Shown here: piece by piece, positions 1 through 55,091 of the stretch | Numbering within the stretch: the first letter of the stretch is position 1 | Layout: the number at the start of each line of letters is the position of its first letter | Source of the DNA: a virus | IMG/VR virus record: IMGVR_UViG_3300010413_000017 | Location: 1-64,000 of that record | Strand: one strand, 5' to 3' | Length of the DNA: 64,000 nt | Program-made: the position numbers and the translations under genes | Notes under the pieces: model-generated | Seen by the model: only the letters and a program-made list of their open reading frames with translations | Databases searched by the model: none | What the model was told of the DNA's origin: nothing

Positions 1-3000
1 ACTGCTTGGGCCACTACTGATGCCACTGCCACTTATGGTGGAGCCAGCGACCTTTGGAGCTCTGGTTATTCCATCAGTGATATCAACGACTCTAGCTTTG
101 GTGTAGACTTATCTGCTACAAATGCTGATGGTAGTGCGGCTCGCGAAGCTAGAGTTGATGCTATTTGGATACGAGTAACTTATGATACTACTCCGACTCT
201 AACAGTCGCCAATACCTCGCATACTCATTCCTCCGAGGCTCCTACCTTATCACAGATAGAGCTAATAATCTCGCGAGTGTACCATTATTCTGCCAGCACA
301 AGCCAAGCATCGACAACTTCTACGAATTATGTCGATGCTCATTCATTAGCCTTTACTCCTGCTGCTAATTCTACTTATTTAATTTTTGGTTCGTGGTTTC
401 TGCGTACAAGTAATACAGGTTATGGTGCTTTTTCCAGATTAATTAATACTACCACCTCTACGACATTTACGGAAGTAAATTTAAATCCTAGGAATAGTGG
501 GAATTATTGGTCCTATGGAGCATTTGCTCAGCAAACATTTGGGGCGAGTCCTTCCACACATACATATAAAATCCAATATCGCCAGTATAGTTTTCTGGCT
601 AGGGCAGTTATTAAGCAATCGAGATTATTTGCTTTAAAACTGCAAGCAAGTGATGAGTTCGCTTCATCTGTAACCCAGTCCTCAACATCTAGTACTGCTT
701 GGCAAGATAAAACCACATTATCATTCACTCCTGCTTCTCCGGGCGATTATCTTTTATTAGCTTCGGCTGAACTTCGCAACAGTTCTGCAAGTTACGATTA
801 TCTCTGTCGCTTGGATGTAGACGGTACACAGTACGATACACAGAATACGAGTCCTAACTATGCTGGCTCTGAGGGCGACACAACTTGGGTTGTTGTTAAA
901 AAGGCCACTCTAACAACCGCGTCGCACACTATTAAAATACAATACAGAAGTGGGAGTGGCTCGGCTACAGCTTATATTCGTCGTGCTTATCTGACAGCTT
1001 TACGTTTAGATGATTTTCCTGGGTACGAATACGCAGAATCAGAGACTAGAAGTGCAACCCTCTCGACTGCTTGGCAAGACAAAACTAGCCTAACAACTTA
1101 CTGTGATGCTTATGACCGTATTGTTCTTGGTACTTGCGGTGGTGATGAAAATTACCATAACAATTCTGCCTGTCTCCGTAGACTCTTGCACGATTCTACT
1201 GATTTGGGTGAGATGGTTCATGAAGATAAAATTGATAACCAAAGACATCGCCCGTATGTAGCTCAAAATGTTTTTTCTTCAGCCGCCACCCATACTTGGA
1301 AATTCCAATACCGTACTAACAATACCTCTGCCACAGCTGGCATACAAGAAGCACGTATCTGTGTTTTACAACTTTACGGCTTAGGGTCGGCAGTCTTAGT
1401 TGTTTCAGACTCTCAGCATGACCACTCAGTTGAGTCTGTTAACTTAACTCAAAAATACAATCTAAGTATATCTTCTTGTTTACATAGCCAGACATCAACT
1501 AGCCCAACGCTGTCTCAACTCCACATTCTAGGTGTAGGTAGTAGTTTACACTCTCATGCGGCGATTAGCCCATTATTAGCACAACTTCATATTTTAAGTG
1601 CAGATAGTGGACTTCACAGTCATACAGCAACCAGCCCATCACTATCACAACTCCACGTTCTAAGTATAGCCGACGGTTTACATCCCCATACCTGTGAGTC
1701 TATAAACTTAATACAGCAGGTTAACTTGGTTGTAGATAATTGCTTACATACTCATATAACTGATAATATTTCCTTAATACAAAAGTATGTACTAGTAGTA
1801 GATAGTGCTCTACATGCTCATACAGCGGAAAGTCCTCTAGTCTCTTCGGTTACATTTATCTCCGAGGTCTACTCTGCTACACACGCTCACTCTGCTGAAT
1901 CTGCTACACTTACACAAGTACACAACCTAACTACGTCTAATGCAAACCATACACATACAGCAGAGAATGTAGTTTTAACTATTACCTATCTACTCGGTGT
2001 TGCTTCCAGTTTCCACAACCACTTAGCTGATTCTGTTTCGCTCTCCCAGACGCACAATCTTGTAGTTGCGAATTGTATTCACCAAACTACATCCCAATCG
2101 CTTATACTGTTTCAGCTTCATGTGCTAGTTGCTCAATTTGCTACTCATACCCATTCAGCCACATCTCTTGACATTTCTCAGCTCCATGTTCTTTTCGTTG
2201 GGAGCACTAGCCACATACACTCGGCTACTTCGGCTTCCCTTGCGCAAACGCATAATCTTGTTGCCAGTGATGCTAACCATCTGCACGTGGTTGATGGTGT
2301 CGAACTCTCCCTCTATTTAGTTATATCTAGTTCTGTCCATAGCCACGTAGTAACATCATTTGCTCTTGGATTCGGCTCCTTTTCTGATTTTATAGAGCCG
2401 AAGATACTCAATCATATTTTTAATGTTGAGTCGTACTCTCCTCCATCTACAGTCTATTTAGCTTTATCTTCAACGAATCCAACAGAAGATGCGAGTGGAT
2501 TGTCGGAGCCGATTGGGGGGGCTTATTCTCGTAAACCGATTACATTCGCAATGGCCGCACAACGACGAATAATACAAAATGCTACAGTCTTATTCGATAC
2601 AGCGACAGCTTCTTGGGGAACTATTAGCTACTGGGCCTTAATGGATTCTGAATCTGCCGGTAACATGATGGTGTATGGGGCGTTTAGCGCTCCTGTGACG
2701 ATTACAAGTGGTAGGGTGGCCGAGGTAAAATCTAGTGAGATAGTTGTTTCTGTGCTTCCACTGCTCACCGCCTCAAAAAACTTAACTGGTGGCTTTTTTA
2801 CCTCGTATGCTAACCTGATTTTAGACTGGTTGTTCAGAGCGCAATCATTATTTCAAAATTACGATATAAAGGTTAGTGCTTGCAATAATATTTCTGACGG
2901 ATGGTCCGAATGGTGGACTTCTCCGAGTGGTGGTGGGTACGCTCCAGTTATTCATAGTTCGTGGACAACCGCCTCTGTAGGCACGTGTTCCAATATTGGA

Positions 3001-3177
3001 ACAATAGCTTTTAATACAGCCACAGCTTCTTGGGGAACTATTACGGCGATAGCAGCGTACTCGATAGTATCACTAGGGTTTTTTAAAATTTGCTATAGTA
3101 CAATAACTCCCATATCAATAGGTACTGGAGACAAATTAATTATTACTAATGGTAACTTCCTAGTAACTGTGGACTAA
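1..3177 (+). CDS. Large tail-fibre-like protein with His-x-His repeats, cut at its 5' end
   Basis: The reading frame is open from the first base, so the true start lies left of the window; GTG at 277 is only an internal codon. Domains in order: one HTH-containing repeat unit near codon 75; three tandem copies of a domain of about 120 residues (each with a conserved TAWQDKT-like start and a THT.K.QYR motif); then about 14 units of a 24-residue repeat with an HxH pair followed by S..L.Q.H.L.V. The C-terminal third holds two copies of a domain with TVYLALS and F.TATASWGT motifs, a type common in phage structural proteins; the second copy is diverged. This suggests a long, beta-rich fibre or tail decoration protein. 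HxH motifs coordinate iron in the T4 gp37 fibre, but that role is only an analogy here. Confidence 0.75.
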   Translation, partial: TAWATTDATATYGGASDLWSSGYSISDINDSSFGVDLSATNADGSAAREARVDAIWIRVTYDTTPTLTVANTSHTHSSEAPTLSQIELIISRVYHYSASTSQASTTSTNYVDAHSLAFTPAANSTYLIFGSWFLRTSNTGYGAFSRLINTTTSTTFTEVNLNPRNSGNYWSYGAFAQQTFGASPSTHTYKIQYRQYSFLARAVIKQSRLFALKLQASDEFASSVTQSSTSSTAWQDKTTLSFTPASPGDYLLLASAELRNSSASYDYLCRLDVDGTQYDTQNTSPNYAGSEGDTTWVVVKKATLTTASHTIKIQYRSGSGSATAYIRRAYLTALRLDDFPGYEYAESETRSATLSTAWQDKTSLTTYCDAYDRIVLGTCGGDENYHNNSACLRRLLHDSTDLGEMVHEDKIDNQRHRPYVAQNVFSSAATHTWKFQYRTNNTSATAGIQEARICVLQLYGLGSAVLVVSDSQHDHSVESVNLTQKYNLSISSCLHSQTSTSPTLSQLHILGVGSSLHSHAAISPLLAQLHILSADSGLHSHTATSPSLSQLHVLSIADGLHPHTCESINLIQQVNLVVDNCLHTHITDNISLIQKYVLVVDSALHAHTAESPLVSSVTFISEVYSATHAHSAESATLTQVHNLTTSNANHTHTAENVVLTITYLLGVASSFHNHLADSVSLSQTHNLVVANCIHQTTSQSLILFQLHVLVAQFATHTHSATSLDISQLHVLFVGSTSHIHSATSASLAQTHNLVASDANHLHVVDGVELSLYLVISSSVHSHVVTSFALGFGSFSDFIEPKILNHIFNVESYSPPSTVYLALSSTNPTEDASGLSEPIGGAYSRKPITFAMAAQRRIIQNATVLFDTATASWGTISYWALMDSESAGNMMVYGAFSAPVTITSGRVAEVKSSEIVVSVLPLLTASKNLTGGFFTSYANLILDWLFRAQSLFQNYDIKVSACNNISDGWSEWWTSPSGGGYAPVIHSSWTTASVGTCSNIGTIAFNTATASWGTITAIAAYSIVSLGFFKICYSTITPISIGTGDKLIITNGNFLVTVD

Positions 3178-3237
3178 CCTTTAAAATATTTACAGTAGTT
3201 TTTGGGTTGGGTTTGGTGATTTCACTAGGCTAAAATT

Positions 3238-5433
3238 ATGGACTTGATTGTAGAAAACATACTCCACTCTCACGTAGCTACTAATGTTAATTTAGCACAA
3301 ACAAAAAGAGTGGGACCAACTCCTAAACTTACCGCTCAAGCGCGCTTTGCGGTTTTGTTAAAACCTTTTGGTCTGTATGTTGACAATGCTCTTCACGACC
3401 ACACAGCGACATCTCCTAGTCTTATCCAACAACACAATTTAGTTATTTCCAGCTGTTCGCACTACCATTTGGTTGAAAGTGCCGTCCTCTCGCAAACCCA
3501 TATTTTAACAGTAGCAAGTTGCGTACATAATCATACTGTAGAAAGTCCAGCCCTCTTTTCTGTCGATAACTGTTGGCACAGCCACTCAGTCGATGCTATT
3601 AGTCTGACTCAAGAACATTCCCTTGTTGTTAGTAATTGTTTACATTCGCATACAGCAGGTAGTATTTATTTAAGTGAATGGGATATCCTCACAGTTTCAT
3701 CTGCTACACATAGCCATACCGCAGGTAGTGTAAGCCTGTCCCAAAAACATATCCTTACAGTTTCTAATTGTGAGCACAGCCATACATCTGATAAAGTTTC
3801 ATTTGTTGTATGGTTGTATCCTAGTTCAGCATTCCACTCGCATTCAGCCGAAAATGTAGACTTAGTTCAAGAGCACAGCCTTTTTGCCAATAATGCGTTT
3901 CACACACACTCAGCTCAAAGTGTAAGTTTATTTCAATTACATACACTAAGCACCCAGAACTGTGCTCATCTGCACAGCACAAGCCCTGTAACTTTAACTC
4001 AGACGCACTCTCTAGTTGTTAGCCCTACTGCTCATTTACACTCAGCCGACTCTGTTAGCCTCTCCCAGTTGCATGTTCTTATTATCAGTGCGTGTACTCA
4101 TGCACACAGCTCGGAGAATGTGGCACTAGTCAAAATTAGTAGCCTAGCAGTTTCTCCAACACTTCATAGCCATACAGCGGAAAGTGTAACATTACTAGAA
4201 TGGGATATTCTCACAGTCTACGACTGTGTCCATTCGCATACAGCTGAATCTCCCATACTAACGCAGGTTCATAACCTTGCAGTTTCTAGTTCTATTCATT
4301 CGCACACAGCAACAAGAATAAGTCTTTCTGGAACAGGCTTTTTAGATGTTCGGAACGCGTTGCATTTTCACTCAACCGAGAGCGTTAGCCTGTCCCAAGC
4401 ACATACTCTTGTAGTTGCTGATAGTTTCCACTCCCATACTGCTGAAAACATCTCGCTGACAGTTTGGCTTAATGTATCATTAGCTTCTCACACCCATACA
4501 GCAGAGAGCATCACTCTAATTCAAGAGCATTCGCTTTCTGTTGAGAATTCCCTTCACTATCATACGGTTTTGAACGTAGAGCTTGGACAGGTCTACATTC
4601 TAGTCACAAGCTCTGCCTCACATGTTCATACTGTTCAGGGAATAGTTTTATCACAAACTCACATCCTTGAGGCTCAGTCTGGGTTAAGTCAGCACTACGC
4701 TTCTGCTCCGACAATATTCCAGATTCACTTTTTAAGCGTAGATAATACTGTACATCAACATACAGTCGATTCCCTTAGCCTATCTGGCGCTCAGTTTTTG
4801 GATGTTCTGGGATGCCTACATAGTCATTCTTCAACATCTCCAACTTTATCTCAGCTCCACATTATAGGTGTGGCGAACGGCTCCCATACTCACATCGCTA
4901 CGTCTTTAACGTTAACTCAAACACATTTACTTGACACAACCAGCGCGCTTCACGCTCACAGGGTCGACGGCATAGTTCTCTTAGAATGGGATATTCTAAC
5001 AGTTCAGGGCTGTAGCCATGGCCATACGGTCGACTCCACTGCATTGGTTCAGCTCCATAGCCTGCCTGTCAATGATGGAGTACATACCCATTCAGCACAG
5101 GCGGTTGCTCTAGGCCAGACACATAACCTACTTGTTTCAAGTCTCCTCCACAGTCATACCTGCTCATTACTTGTTTTAGTAGCGATTCTGGATTTAATTG
5201 TTGATAGTGGTCTGCATTCACATATTGCAGAGAGCCCGGAGGTAGAACTTGCCAGTTTAAGTGTAGGAAACTGTCTCCATTCGCTCGTTTCTGACGTTGT
5301 CGCCTTAACGCAAGAGCATCGTCTGTTGGTTGCTAACACACGACATGTACAGACAGCAGAATCTCTAGTTGTGGTGCATATACCAAGAGTTTTACCAGAA
5401 GTCGGGCTAATAGTTTATGTGGAAAGACGATGA
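3238..5433 (+). CDS. His-x-His repeat protein (fibre-like)
   Basis: Almost the whole 731-residue protein consists of roughly 25-30 degenerate units of about 24 residues with the pattern H.HTA.S..L.Q.H.L.V. This is the same repeat as in the preceding gene, without its other domains. Each unit looks like two or three beta strands with a histidine pair at the turn, which fits a trimeric fibre or an elongated decoration protein, possibly binding metal. There is no signal peptide or enzyme motif. The short C-terminus after the last unit is hydrophobic, with VLPEVGLIVYV. It is probably a virion protein; the exact location is unknown. Confidence 0.7.
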   Translation: MDLIVENILHSHVATNVNLAQTKRVGPTPKLTAQARFAVLLKPFGLYVDNALHDHTATSPSLIQQHNLVISSCSHYHLVESAVLSQTHILTVASCVHNHTVESPALFSVDNCWHSHSVDAISLTQEHSLVVSNCLHSHTAGSIYLSEWDILTVSSATHSHTAGSVSLSQKHILTVSNCEHSHTSDKVSFVVWLYPSSAFHSHSAENVDLVQEHSLFANNAFHTHSAQSVSLFQLHTLSTQNCAHLHSTSPVTLTQTHSLVVSPTAHLHSADSVSLSQLHVLIISACTHAHSSENVALVKISSLAVSPTLHSHTAESVTLLEWDILTVYDCVHSHTAESPILTQVHNLAVSSSIHSHTATRISLSGTGFLDVRNALHFHSTESVSLSQAHTLVVADSFHSHTAENISLTVWLNVSLASHTHTAESITLIQEHSLSVENSLHYHTVLNVELGQVYILVTSSASHVHTVQGIVLSQTHILEAQSGLSQHYASAPTIFQIHFLSVDNTVHQHTVDSLSLSGAQFLDVLGCLHSHSSTSPTLSQLHIIGVANGSHTHIATSLTLTQTHLLDTTSALHAHRVDGIVLLEWDILTVQGCSHGHTVDSTALVQLHSLPVNDGVHTHSAQAVALGQTHNLLVSSLLHSHTCSLLVLVAILDLIVDSGLHSHIAESPEVELASLSVGNCLHSLVSDVVALTQEHRLLVANTRHVQTAESLVVVHIPRVLPEVGLIVYVERR

Positions 5434-48760: not shown

Positions 48761-49006
48761 TCAACCGTCCTTGGAGCGGAACGAGGGATACGAACCCTCA
48801 TCTTTAGACGGGAAGTCTAACGTTTTACTTAAACTAGTTCCGCTTGGTTGTTCAATCGCTCGTTCGATGGCACACCTAACAAGAGGGATAAGTATGTCTA
48901 GACAACGTGTGCAATAGAGGTCAGGTAAATCGTAGCCTTGTTCAGCTAATGCAACAACATCGTCAATTAAGTCCCCGCAACCTTGGCAAAAAACATTTAT
49001 GGTCAT
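48761..49006 (-). CDS. Zinc-ribbon protein whose 3' end runs through a tRNA gene
   Basis: The 81-residue protein has CQGCGDLIDDVVALAEQGYD and LYCTRCLDILIPLV, a normal small zinc ribbon. The last 27 residues are read from the tRNA-Gly gene and its flank, on the same strand, before a stop is met. The original protein probably ended near ERAIEQ, and a tRNA took the place of its 3' end. The start ATG overlaps the resolvase-like stop (ATGA). Confidence 0.6.
   Translation of the reverse strand: MTINVFCQGCGDLIDDVVALAEQGYDLPDLYCTRCLDILIPLVRCAIERAIEQPSGTSLSKTLDFPSKDEGSYPSFRSKDG
48772..48843 (-). tRNA. tRNA-Gly (TCC)
   Basis: A 72-base sequence with encoded CCA: acceptor GCGGAAC/GTTCCGC, anticodon stem TTAGA/TCTAA with loop CTTCCCG (anticodon TCC), T arm GAGGG-TTCGTAT-CCCTC and discriminator T, as usual for bacterial tRNA-Gly. 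The D arm is short (GTT TAAGTAA AAC). It overlaps the 3' part of the zinc-ribbon frame. Confidence 0.85.
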
Positions 49007-51037: not shown

Positions 51038-51243
51038 CAGTCTTCCTCTTTTTGTTTACTGCCCTGCGGATTTGTCATAGGCGTACCGTCAGGGAACAGT
51101 ACGAAATCTTCCTTTTGTTTAACCCAGTTGCACGGGCCATACTGACGTTCGAATTCGCGTATAAATTCGCGCCTGTCCTGTTCTTCAAGATGACGAAAGA
51201 ACGCGTCAGTCCACTTCTTCCAGAGCTTCTTAATTTTATCCAC
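51037..51243 (-). CDS. Small charged hypothetical protein
   Basis: The start is GTG 51243, overlapping the RNR stop, with GGAG 5 bases upstream; this gives 68 residues (MDKIKKLWKKWTDAFFRHLEE). The rest is charged with W and F (VKQKEDFVLFPDGTP). A longer upstream frame would overlap RNR without a ribosome site. No motif recognised. Confidence 0.5.
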   Translation of the reverse strand: MDKIKKLWKKWTDAFFRHLEEQDRREFIREFERQYGPCNWVKQKEDFVLFPDGTPMTNPQGSKQKEED

Positions 51244-53509
51244 AGTTACTCCATCCACAAAAAGGATTAGGACAAGTTTCACATCCCTCTTTTGCTACCA
51301 AGATTTCTCCGCAATCTGGGCACATCTTAGCGTCCCCAGGTAGTACTCGGGTTGAGCGGTAGATTTCTAATTCATCCTCTGGAGCACTGGGGCTGGCGGC
51401 AGGAATCGAACCCGCGACCGTCTCATTACAAGTGAGGCGCTCTACCTGCTGAGCTACGCCAGCCCGTGCTTGTTGCTCTTGGGTTTGTTGGCTTTGTAAC
51501 TTTCTCTTGCGAATGACTTTTGCAATGCCGTCAGGGGGGGATAAGACTTGTTCTCCATTGTGGAACATTACACGCTCGCCGCCGATGCCCCGCAACTGCT
51601 TCTCGATGTCTTCCCACGACGCTCCATACTTAAGTGCAAGTGTCCCGAGGCGTCCGACAGCGTCGTTCATCGCCGCAATAGTTCTACCTGATTTAGAAAT
51701 CTGAGTCCACATTTCTTTAAACCCTGTATTAGAGTCTTCAAACAGATGCACCCAAAGAGTGCCGTCCCCAGTCTTAACTCTATCTCTGGACCCAGCTAGA
51801 AATTCAGGGGTTTCTAGAGTTACAGAAGACGTATATGACGCATGTTCTGCCTTTTTAGTATGGCGTAGGCTGGGTGGGAGAGATTTGATAATATCCCTGT
51901 ATGCTTTTGTATCTCGTTGGGCTTCCTCTTCTCGACTCCCCTGTCGGTAGAAAGTGATGCCCTTGCACCCAAGTTTATACGCGAGCCTGAAAGCTCTGTC
52001 CACTTCCTCGATAGTTACAGAACTGGGAGCGTTGATAGTCTTGCTTACAGCATTGTCTGTATATTTTTGGAAAGCGGCCTGCATCTTAACATGATGTTCG
52101 ATTGGGACGTCCTTAGATTCGATGAAATAGTCGGGACATTTTATCCCTTCATTGATGGCTTGCCAGTCCTCGTATAGAGGATGCATTACGACCAGCGTTT
52201 CATCTATTGCTTTTTTCTCGTAGACGAATGAGAATACTGGCTCAATCCCCGAGCTACACCCGGCTATTAAACTGAGTGTGCCTGTAGGAGCTATCGTTGT
52301 AACCGTCCCGTTTCTGCGGTCAATAAGGGGTGTATCCTTGCGCCCAGAAGGTAAGTCTGCCCAAGCTGGGTATCCTTTTTCCTTAGCTAACTCTGTAGAA
52401 CAGAGATGAGCTACGTCATTAACGAATTGCATCACCTGTTCAGCTAGGACTAGAGCCGTTTCCATGTCATAACGTATTCGCATCTTAATAAGCATGTCAG
52501 CCCAGCCCATAACACCTAGCCCTATTTTGCGGAACTTTGTTGTTTCTCGTTTTATTTCGATAATTGGGTAATTATTAACGTCAATTACGTTATCAAGAAA
52601 ACGGACGGCTGTTTGCACAACCTCCATGAGCCTGTCCCACTGGATTGCGGGGAATATTGTTCCGGTATCTTCATTTAGTAAAGGCTCAACAAAATTACTT
52701 AGATTGATGCTTCCTAAAACACAAGACTCATAAGGGGACAACGGTTGCTCCCCACAAGGATTTGTGGCTGTAATCTTTTGATACTTTCCGACAGGGTTAG
52801 TCTCGTTAACCTTGTCTATAAAGACAATGCCCGGTTCTCCGTTCTTCCATGCGCCGTCGATTATACTCGCCCAAATGTAATCTACGTGTGGATACCCTGT
52901 CAAGGCGACCTTATCCATGAAATCATCTGTTAAAGCAACCGAGATATTGAAATGTCTCAACTCTCCTTCTTTTTCTTTGCACTTAATAAACTCGAGAACA
53001 TCTGGATGGTCACAGCGTAGAATACCCATCTGCGCTCCTTTGCGAACTCCTCCCTGCTCAATTATTTCTCCTACAACAAAGTCAAAGACACGCATAAATC
53101 CAACAGGTCCAGAGGCTTTGCCTTTTGTTGTACTAATTAATGAACCGCGCGGTCGGAGATTCGAGAAATCGTAACCTGTGCCTCCACCGAAAGCCTGAAC
53201 TTCGACTGCGTCTGTGAGAGCTTTAAAAATAGACTGACGAGAATCTTCGATTGGGATAACAAAGCAGGCGGCTAAGTTACCGTGATTGGCTCCTGCGTTC
53301 CGCAGGGTGGGGGAGTTGGGAAGAAAATCCAAATTGGACATTACTGAGTAGAACTCTTGTTCCCAGTAGTCCTTGTCCTTTTCCACAGAGGCGATATGGC
53401 GTGCTACACGCCTGAACATCTCTTCCGGTGCTTCAATAACGTTGCCACGTGCATCCTGCTGTAGAATCCGCTTTTCTAAAACTCGAATCGCGTTAGCCGA
53501 CAGATTCAA
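51236..53509 (-). CDS. nrdJ: Class II (adenosylcobalamin-dependent) ribonucleotide reductase with a tRNA gene inside
   Basis: The start is TTG 53509 with GGAGG 7 bases upstream; 757 residues. Key residues are Cys82 (AACFVIPIED), Cys252 in NPCGE (250-254) and Cys263 (SCVLGSINL), with GGGTGYDFSNLRPRGS before them. There is no ATP cone. It makes deoxynucleotides using cobalamin. Residues about 683-708 are encoded by a complete tRNA-Thr gene on the same strand. The frame stays open and continues into the C-terminal cysteine domain (CPDCG, CETC, CGWSNCG) needed for re-reduction. A terminator lies just before its ribosome site. Confidence 0.9.
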   Translation of the reverse strand: MNLSANAIRVLEKRILQQDARGNVIEAPEEMFRRVARHIASVEKDKDYWEQEFYSVMSNLDFLPNSPTLRNAGANHGNLAACFVIPIEDSRQSIFKALTDAVEVQAFGGGTGYDFSNLRPRGSLISTTKGKASGPVGFMRVFDFVVGEIIEQGGVRKGAQMGILRCDHPDVLEFIKCKEKEGELRHFNISVALTDDFMDKVALTGYPHVDYIWASIIDGAWKNGEPGIVFIDKVNETNPVGKYQKITATNPCGEQPLSPYESCVLGSINLSNFVEPLLNEDTGTIFPAIQWDRLMEVVQTAVRFLDNVIDVNNYPIIEIKRETTKFRKIGLGVMGWADMLIKMRIRYDMETALVLAEQVMQFVNDVAHLCSTELAKEKGYPAWADLPSGRKDTPLIDRRNGTVTTIAPTGTLSLIAGCSSGIEPVFSFVYEKKAIDETLVVMHPLYEDWQAINEGIKCPDYFIESKDVPIEHHVKMQAAFQKYTDNAVSKTINAPSSVTIEEVDRAFRLAYKLGCKGITFYRQGSREEEAQRDTKAYRDIIKSLPPSLRHTKKAEHASYTSSVTLETPEFLAGSRDRVKTGDGTLWVHLFEDSNTGFKEMWTQISKSGRTIAAMNDAVGRLGTLALKYGASWEDIEKQLRGIGGERVMFHNGEQVLSPPDGIAKVIRKRKLQSQQTQEQQARAGVAQQVERLTCNETVAGSIPAASPSAPEDELEIYRSTRVLPGDAKMCPDCGEILVAKEGCETCPNPFCGWSNCG
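51388..51463 (-). tRNA. tRNA-Thr (TGT) nested in the RNR gene
   Basis: A 76-base cloverleaf with encoded CCA: acceptor GCTGGCG/CGCCAGC, D stem GCTC/GAGC with loop AGCAGGTA, anticodon loop CTTGTAA (anticodon TGT), variable CGGTC, T arm GCGGG-TTCGATT-CCTGC. All conserved tRNA positions are present. One outer anticodon pair is C-A. It lies entirely in frame inside nrdJ, in the same direction. Confidence 0.93.
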
Positions 53510-53521
53510 TAAACTACCTCC

Positions 53522-53550
53522 AAAAAGGGCACTAGTTTTTACTAGTGCCC
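53522..53550 (-). terminator. Rho-independent terminator directly ahead of the RNR gene
   Basis: Read on the - strand, a perfect 10-pair stem GGGCACTAGT/ACTAGTGCCC closes a TTTT/AAAA loop and is followed by TTTTT. It ends transcription of the 53560-54111 gene. Its U run stops only 12 bases before the RNR start codon, and the RNR ribosome site lies between, so RNR expression needs read-through or anti-termination. Confidence 0.88.
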
Positions 53551-54167: not shown

Positions 54168-54179
54168 GGGGCTACGTGA

Positions 54180-54250
54180 TGTCCCAATGGATAGACCGGC
54201 CGTCCTCCGAATGGGCCTGTGTGGGTTCGAATCCCATCGGGGGCATTGGA
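54180..54250 (+). pseudogene. tRNA-like sequence A (arginine-type, broken acceptor)
   Basis: On the + strand, CCCAATGGATAGACC resembles a D arm and GTGGG-TTCGAAT-CCCAT is a perfect T arm followed by CGGGGGCA, a normal 3' acceptor half. The matching 5' half (GCCCCCG) is missing, and the anticodon arm pairs poorly around CTCCGAA. It looks like a damaged tRNA-Arg, on the strand opposite to all genes here. Confidence 0.5.
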
Positions 54251-54323
54251 GTAGGTAGACAACGTTCACTTCCAATGAACTAGGGTGGCCGCCCCGTGCA
54301 GGTTCGAGTCCAGCCGCCAGCAC
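54243..54323 (+). pseudogene. tRNA-like sequence B (class II shape with glycine-type anticodon)
   Basis: GGAGTAGGTAGACAACG resembles a leucine-type D arm. A perfect stem GTTCA/TGAAC encloses CTTCCAA (anticodon TCC), then a long variable arm (AGGGTGGCCGCCCC) and GCAGG-TTCGAGT-CCAGC with one mismatch, then CGCCAGCACC. No 5' acceptor half pairs with it. It starts inside sequence A. It looks like a recombined or decayed tRNA. Confidence 0.5.
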
Positions 54324-54328
54324 CTAAA

Positions 54329-54383
54329 TGGGGGTCGCAGGTTTGCCGCGGGGGCTTTCCATCCAATTGAGCTACGACCCCCA
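54329..54383 (-). pseudogene. tRNA-like sequence C (55 bases, deleted)
   Basis: Read on the - strand, TGGGGGTCG/CGACCCCCA gives a perfect 9-pair acceptor-like stem enclosing TAGCTCAATTGGAT, a clear D-arm sequence. Only about 25 bases remain where anticodon and T arms should be. It is too short for a functional tRNA. Confidence 0.55.
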
Positions 54384-54431
54384 TGTTGGGTCGGCTTGGA
54401 TTCGAACCAAGATTTCCTGTTTATCAGTAGC
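54384..54431 (-). pseudogene. tRNA-like sequence D (3' half only)
   Basis: Read on the - strand, CTTGG-TTCGAAT-CCAAG is a perfect T arm followed by CCGACCC-A, a 3' acceptor half, and the loop CTGATAA is anticodon-like (GAT). Upstream there is no D arm or 5' acceptor because the VWA gene ends there. It is a 3' tRNA fragment placed directly before sequence C. Confidence 0.5.
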
Positions 54432-55091
54432 TTATTTGGACTTTTGTTTAGCCTTTGTCTTCGCACGCTTGCGTTGCTTAGCGTCGAAGGCCATACTCAT
54501 AGCAACCCCTGTCCTGTATGAGGTCAAGTTATCCGCCATAGACGCGAACGCTACTTGAGTCCCTACACCAGAAGGGTCATAGCTCAGAGTATTTGCGGCT
54601 TGGATACCATATCTGAAAGCGTCCTGTTCACAATGGATGTCGGACGACAGAAAGAGCACTTCCCATTTGTACACATCCTGCTGATGTTCAATCATCTCGC
54701 GGACTTTCTCCTCGGTGTACTCTTGGCTATCGTTCTCACGACCGTCAGTCATGATAGCGAAGACAACTTTAGACGGACGCTCTGCCTCAGGTAGAGCCGC
54801 TAAGCGTTCTCCGATTGTGTTCATCGTTTTGCCGATGGCATCCAAGAGACGTGTCATGCCTCTAGGCTGATAGTTTCTCTCGTTAAGAATCCGAGCATCA
54901 GCGATGTCTACACAGTCCTGTAGTAACTCGTAGCGATCATCGAATTGAGCCAGCGTATATGTCGCCTTTCCAGGTACTTGCTGTTGGGATTTGATAAATT
55001 CGTTGTAGCCACCGATAGTATCGTCTTTTACGCGTTGCATCGAACCAGACCTGTCCAGTACAAGTCCAATGTGTGTGTAGTCTTGTCGCAT
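54432..55091 (-). CDS. VWA (von Willebrand factor A) domain protein
   Basis: The 219-residue protein is one VWA domain with the MIDAS motif DRSGSM (13-18), a MTRLLDAIG Thr and VVFAIMTDGREND. The C-terminus is a Lys-rich tail (KQRKRAKTKAKQKSK). VWA proteins of this size bind partners through Mg and occur in phages with unknown roles. A GGAGG site precedes the start. The stop is followed directly by the tRNA-like patch. Confidence 0.85.
   Translation of the reverse strand: MRQDYTHIGLVLDRSGSMQRVKDDTIGGYNEFIKSQQQVPGKATYTLAQFDDRYELLQDCVDIADARILNERNYQPRGMTRLLDAIGKTMNTIGERLAALPEAERPSKVVFAIMTDGRENDSQEYTEEKVREMIEHQQDVYKWEVLFLSSDIHCEQDAFRYGIQAANTLSYDPSGVGTQVAFASMADNLTSYRTGVAMSMAFDAKQRKRAKTKAKQKSK

Follow-up and report, generated by a model that had tools for sequence, protein, structure and literature searches.

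The stretch of viral DNA analysed here (the window) comprises bases 1-64000 of the 73,860-base record IMGVR_UViG_3300010413_000017, which represents an uncultured phage known from a metagenome assembly. It carries a complete tRNA-Thr(UGU) gene in frame, and on the same strand, inside nrdJ, the gene of a class II (B12-dependent) ribonucleotide reductase (RNR), and the same tRNA lies at the same site in the nrdJ of a second, diverged phage. The tRNA gene probably came to lie in the linker region of nrdJ before at least two phage lineages parted, and was kept for two purposes, as a coding sequence and as a tRNA.

Identification of the reductase: nrdJ (51236..53509, minus strand, as are all features of the gene given below) was assigned by family, domain and structure matches. 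It has 757 codons and a TTG start, with a GGAGG ribosome-binding site (53517..53521) seven bases 5′ of the start codon. Its product scores 592 bits against NrdJ_Z (NCBIfam; curated cut-off 400), contains the N-terminal all-alpha, barrel and TSCPD domains of Pfam and matches PHROG 84 over residues 8-756; the nearest solved structure, both by sequence and by fold, is that of Thermotoga maritima NrdJ (PDB 1XJE). By these matches the protein is a class II RNR (NrdJ), with predicted dependence on adenosylcobalamin. It has in common with T. maritima NrdJ and TIGR02504 the domains, the active-site cysteines, a TSCPD-type region and a cysteine tail at the C terminus. Three cysteines that are invariant in 25 sequences were given their expected roles from general RNR knowledge: C82 (53264..53266) is presumably an active-site redox cysteine, C252 in the motif NPCGE (52754..52756) the thiyl-radical cysteine and C263 (52721..52723) the second redox cysteine. 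A perfect 10-bp inverted repeat (GGGCACTAGT...ACTAGTGCCC), followed by five T on the minus strand, was noted just 5′ of the ribosome-binding site (53527-53550) and is a candidate terminator or attenuator.

The embedded tRNA: The tRNA-Thr(UGU) gene (51388..51463) codes for NrdJ residues 683-708 and was called by ARAGORN and by Rfam (RF00005; 66.4 bits, the top score of the four tRNAs in the window). A cloverleaf, the UGU anticodon (51428..51430; identified by ARAGORN and tRNA comparison, and reading ACA) with A37, and an encoded 3′ CCA are all present. The frame is unbroken across the tRNA, and a C-terminal redox tail with six cysteines follows it (residues 729-757, 51239..51325); C730, C733, C743, C746, C751 and C756 are invariant among 25 aligned phage NrdJs. 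Such cysteines at the C terminus of RNRs re-reduce the active site. Both central elements of the original prediction, namely a complete tRNA-Thr with CCA in frame within nrdJ and a cysteine motif encoded 3′ of it, were thus confirmed by ARAGORN, Rfam, the open 757-codon reading frame and the invariant tail. The tRNA accounts for only part of the extra sequence, because the window adds a linker extension of 33 bases between KRKL and the tRNA (51464..51496) and another of 62 bases 3′ of it (51326..51387). An intein or intron remnant was ruled out, as the insert consists of tRNA and short linker; ARAGORN searches with relaxed thresholds and introns gave noise only.

A second phage with the same arrangement: An IMG/VR scan with a small NrdJ alignment yielded L109, a 140-kb phage contig from a different metagenome. 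Its nrdJ (2968-5226; located by alignment scan and frame check) encodes a protein that is 56% identical to the window NrdJ and scores 565 bits against NrdJ_Z, above the same cut-off. A tRNA-Thr(UGU) gene (5069-5143) lies in frame in this nrdJ, directly after the KVIRKRKL codons and hence at the site used in the window; the residues DGIAKVIRKRKL immediately precede the insertion in both phages. The linker of L109 is essentially the tRNA alone: the 62-base extension is absent, and a single base takes the place of the 33-base one. About 30 open reading frames (ORFs) of the window were matched in L109, their order largely kept and their identity mostly 40-69%, with mostly 50-69% for the genes of the syntenic block, so that the in-frame arrangement is present in two lineages of one phage group. 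On each of the two records the embedded gene is the sole tRNA-Thr. An assembly or binning artefact, in which a tRNA repeat joins two pieces of nrdJ, might be considered since both records are metagenome assemblies; it is nearly refuted by the agreement of two independent contigs in site and frame, by the continuation of the same protein on both sides of the tRNA and by the single-copy state of the tRNA on the record of the window. The original prediction had named a misassembled junction or a frame change at the tRNA edges as what would overturn it, and this point was answered indirectly, by the same arrangement in L109.

The comparison of nrdJ between relatives with and without the tRNA, which had also been proposed, sets the two phages apart from the other NrdJs covered: no tRNA overlaps nrdJ in roughly 170 further NrdJ ORFs from phage and prokaryote genomes (some of them duplicates). 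Closer relatives were sought by single-protein and alignment scans of viral contigs, and none was found. DNA patterns consisting of a T-arm followed by the cysteine motif, at two spacings, returned an embedded tRNA in L109 only, and a search with the pattern PDGIAKVIR likewise matched L109 only. A genome scan for NrdJ gave a best identity of ∼43% and no member with an internal tRNA. Searched by megablast with 24 kb, cultured phages returned no match, and the DNA polymerase of the window phage is at most ∼25% identical to theirs; a distant polymerase (32%) was found on contig L349, a fragment without nrdJ and without a tRNA.

Conservation as RNA: Identity between the embedded tRNAs is 75%, higher than in three compared pairs of free tRNAs from these two phages (Pro 61%, Gln 64%, Gly 68%). 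Their acceptor and D stems are identical, and all five pairs of the anticodon stem differ, three of them through compensatory changes on both sides. Pairing holds in 95% of the cloverleaf cells and falls to 38-54% once the partners are slid by 1-3 columns. Positions 15 and 48, which form the Levitt tertiary pair, are G15-C48 in one embedded tRNA and A15-U48 in the other. From this covariation, the embedded sequence appears to change like an RNA between the two phages. Folding energies were not used as evidence: the window tRNA alone folds modestly better than shuffles (z -1.89), and the L109 tRNA with its flanks no better (z -0.59).

Common descent of the two insertions was weighed against two independent insertions, or a later swap for different tRNA-Thr genes, in a linker hotspot. 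Each embedded tRNA is nearer to a free tRNA-Thr of other phages (88% and 84%) than to its counterpart, as would be expected from separate origins. The isoacceptor and the site after KRKL are nevertheless the same, both copies carry a G-1/C73 combination that is absent from free copies, and an embedded tRNA is missing from all the other NrdJs surveyed; separate origins are therefore unlikely.

Conservation as protein and reading frame: In the 106 codons before the insertion, window and L109 show 31 identical, 42 synonymous and 33 replacement positions; the 25 aligned codons after it comprise 11 identical, 7 synonymous and 7 replacement positions, with every cysteine kept. This pattern in the flanks, together with the kept cysteines, argues that both lineages continue to translate the tail in this frame. 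The tRNA itself is read differently. L109 has one base fewer in the D-loop and a 5′ junction displaced by one base, so that the 5′ halves are read in different frames and give different peptides (GVAQQVERL in one phage, WRSSTEEQ in the other); the 3′ halves are read alike (VAGSIPAASP and VAGSIPIASP). The window uses frame 0 and L109 frame +2, both of which are open. In frame +1 the invariant U8-A9-G10 is a stop codon, and in frame +2 of the window tRNA U36-A37-A38 is another; the shorter D-loop of L109 moves the latter into frame +1 and thereby opens frame +2.

For comparison, 42 free tRNA-Thr genes were collected with a pattern that fixes the 5′ half only, and other fetched genes brought the total to 51, nearly all of them on viral contigs. 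Of these, 32/51 are open in frame 0, 1/51 in frame +1 and 5/51 in frame +2. Openness by itself is thus weak evidence, and two balanced indels with both functions apparently preserved are better evidence; what goes beyond chance is that this tRNA recurs, at one and the same site, in a phage that is diverged yet syntenic. The conserved properties are the tRNA and the open frame, not the encoded peptide.

Position in the enzyme: In other NrdJs the linker before the cysteine tail is about 16-70 residues long (median 27), as estimated by motif search. An AlphaFold2 model of the window NrdJ, built from 25 sequences, has a mean predicted local distance difference test score (pLDDT) of 84.7; block means fall to 33-52 over residues 681-720, and values are below 50 at residues 690-724. 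Given this low model confidence and the variable length of the linker in the family, the stretch encoded by the tRNA is most likely a floppy tether, a predicted disordered linker from the enzyme core to the redox tail. A long tether would suit the re-reduction of the active site by the tail. The suggestion that the tRNA-encoded residues serve as a linker is well supported by the variable site, the low model confidence and the protein-type conservation of both flanks.

The G-1/C73 combination: Both embedded tRNAs have C73 as the discriminator base (51391..51391 in the window) and G-1 (51464..51464), which can pair with it, so that an eighth acceptor pair is possible. Among the 51 other tRNA-Thr genes, A73 occurs in 25, U73 in 26 and C73 in none (0/51). 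The reading frame does not force the choice, since A or T at this position would give a Thr or Ser codon. Bacterial tRNA-His likewise has an encoded G-1:C73, with which RNase P cuts one base earlier and which is important to histidyl-tRNA synthetase (PMC4284800). The embedded tRNAs share these two bases with tRNA-His and do not otherwise belong to that class, as the anticodon is UGU instead of GUG and the overall sequence is that of a tRNA-Thr. In the window, leader AGCAC (51466-51470) and trailer GTGCT (51383-51387; both minus strand) are complementary to each other and could extend the acceptor helix; they are absent in L109. As a hypothesis, such a lengthened stem could slow processing and protect the message. 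By analogy with tRNA-His, the embedded tRNA might even be a tuned switch, in which G-1:C73 slows or shifts RNase P and ribosome traffic picks reductase or tRNA for each transcript, an idea that we regard as doubtful. A stranger sub-case would have histidyl-tRNA synthetase charge the tRNA through G-1:C73, with ACA misread as histidine.

Proposed dual role: Under the reading that we prefer, the tRNA gene would have entered a disordered linker and would since be used in two ways. When translated, its ∼25 codons would form a flexible linker that joins the reductase core to the redox-active tail; when folded in the transcript, the same bases would form a tRNA precursor from which RNase P and 3′ nucleases of the host can release a tRNA, which would supply the phage's only tRNA-Thr. 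Ribosomes may hold the tRNA open and yield the full-length enzyme; excision would leave one tRNA and a 5′ message without a stop codon, whose product would lack the redox tail. Because the same bases are read in both ways, each nrdJ transcript would give either full-length enzyme or tRNA. The original prediction had treated the linker and a competition between tRNA maturation and full-length enzyme as alternatives; the sequence favours both at once. If the nrdJ transcript is the source of the tRNA, competition follows. We infer this release, the either/or outcome and the charging with threonine from the arrangement itself. The window phage uses ACA, which this tRNA reads, more than any other Thr codon (41%).

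Several observations weigh against this reading. The L109 phage does not favour ACA among its Thr codons (29%), and the arrangement has just two known members. A column-shuffle control matched the observed covariation in 40/500 cases, as expected from two sequences. A single pair in each tRNA is non-standard (27-43 in the window, 50-64 in L109), and C73 departs in both copies from the usual A73 or U73 discriminator of tRNA-Thr. Since C73 is not excluded by a universal identity rule, the assignment as tRNA-Thr is lowered only a little. C73 and the mismatched pairs would also fit a tRNA-like RNA device that no longer decodes, for example an RNase P-sensitive regulator of the stability of the nrdJ message. 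This is quite improbable: the anticodon loop CTTGTAA, the acceptor stem, the T-loop, CCA and the 15-48 pair are kept in both copies, Rfam ranks the embedded tRNA best in the window, and a relic would be expected to show the decay seen in the tRNA-like remnants nearby (54170-54440).

A closer competitor to the dual role is passive insertion, in which a tolerant linker accepted the tRNA, the phage keeps the tRNA because it needs it, the enzyme does no more than put up with ∼25 odd residues, and release is rare or driven by the tRNA's own promoter, with no regulatory meaning. It differs mainly in denying that the conflict between message and tRNA matters, and we give it a little less than an even chance. 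A linker of widely varying length that is predicted to be disordered implies a low cost of insertion, and the lack of conservation of the encoded peptide fits equally well. Promoter-like sites around and inside nrdJ showed no excess over shuffles, so a private promoter of the tRNA is not supported, and the common G-1/C73 suggests adaptation to the site.

Other tRNA-related and neighbouring features: Upstream of nrdJ, the region 54170-54440 contains decayed tRNA-like sequences on both strands (a "tRNA graveyard"), with two weak tRNA-Gly calls on the plus strand and, on the minus strand, half of a T-arm and a cloverleaf that lacks the T-arm. The 3′ end of an 81-codon ORF (48761-49006, minus strand) contains a second embedded tRNA, a tRNA-Gly(UCC) gene (48772-48843, minus strand), in frame; the ORF starts at an ATGA overlap with the preceding gene and has CxxC motifs. 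It has no match in the related phage, and its overlap with the tRNA may be due to chance. A candidate tRNA with anticodon CUA in the related phage (L221: 11440-11515, minus strand; tRNA-Pyl by ARAGORN, 34 bits) is a possible amber suppressor; TAG is still the stop codon of 5/33 ORFs there. Beyond the window (record positions 72312-73849; L005: 12313-13850), ORFs resemble by motif a GTP cyclohydrolase I and a QueE-like radical SAM enzyme, and would fit 7-deazaguanine modification of DNA.

Relation to known systems: Known phage tRNA-Thr copies are free genes in tRNA clusters with A73 or U73, in contrast to the embedded ones, which lie inside an ORF and have C73 and G-1; the free tRNA-Thr(UGU) of Aeromonas phage TSW001 is 88% identical, with the same anticodon loop and an encoded CCA. 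We are aware of no earlier case in which a complete tRNA is maintained within a conserved enzyme gene and read in its sense frame. None was found in the open-access literature either, although crude phrase searching is weak evidence of absence. The window case belongs with gene overlaps and with tRNA-mRNA co-transcripts. E. coli thrU-tufB is a mixed tRNA-mRNA transcription unit. Dicistronic tRNA-mRNA transcripts occur in plants (PMC13293983). In these units tRNA and message share one transcript and are parted by RNase P and 3′ nucleases, with the tRNA beside the coding sequence; in the window it lies inside, so release would destroy the message for the full-length protein. In condensed mitochondrial genomes, neighbouring tRNA genes share one to six positions (PMC4284800), so that bases belong to a tRNA and another gene there as well; in the present case the complete tRNA serves as coding sequence, read in the sense frame.

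Overlapping genes usually concern two proteins or contacts at gene edges only. Here one set of bases in the interior of an enzyme gene appears to be maintained both as a structured, processed RNA and as coding sequence, over a long divergence and with balanced indels. The finding also cautions that coding calls overlapping a tRNA may be dropped or trimmed by annotation pipelines. The two phages may offer a natural system for the action of RNase P on a translated mRNA and for the passage of ribosomes through a full tRNA fold, and for asking whether a phage couples its supply of tRNA to its supply of deoxynucleoside triphosphates.
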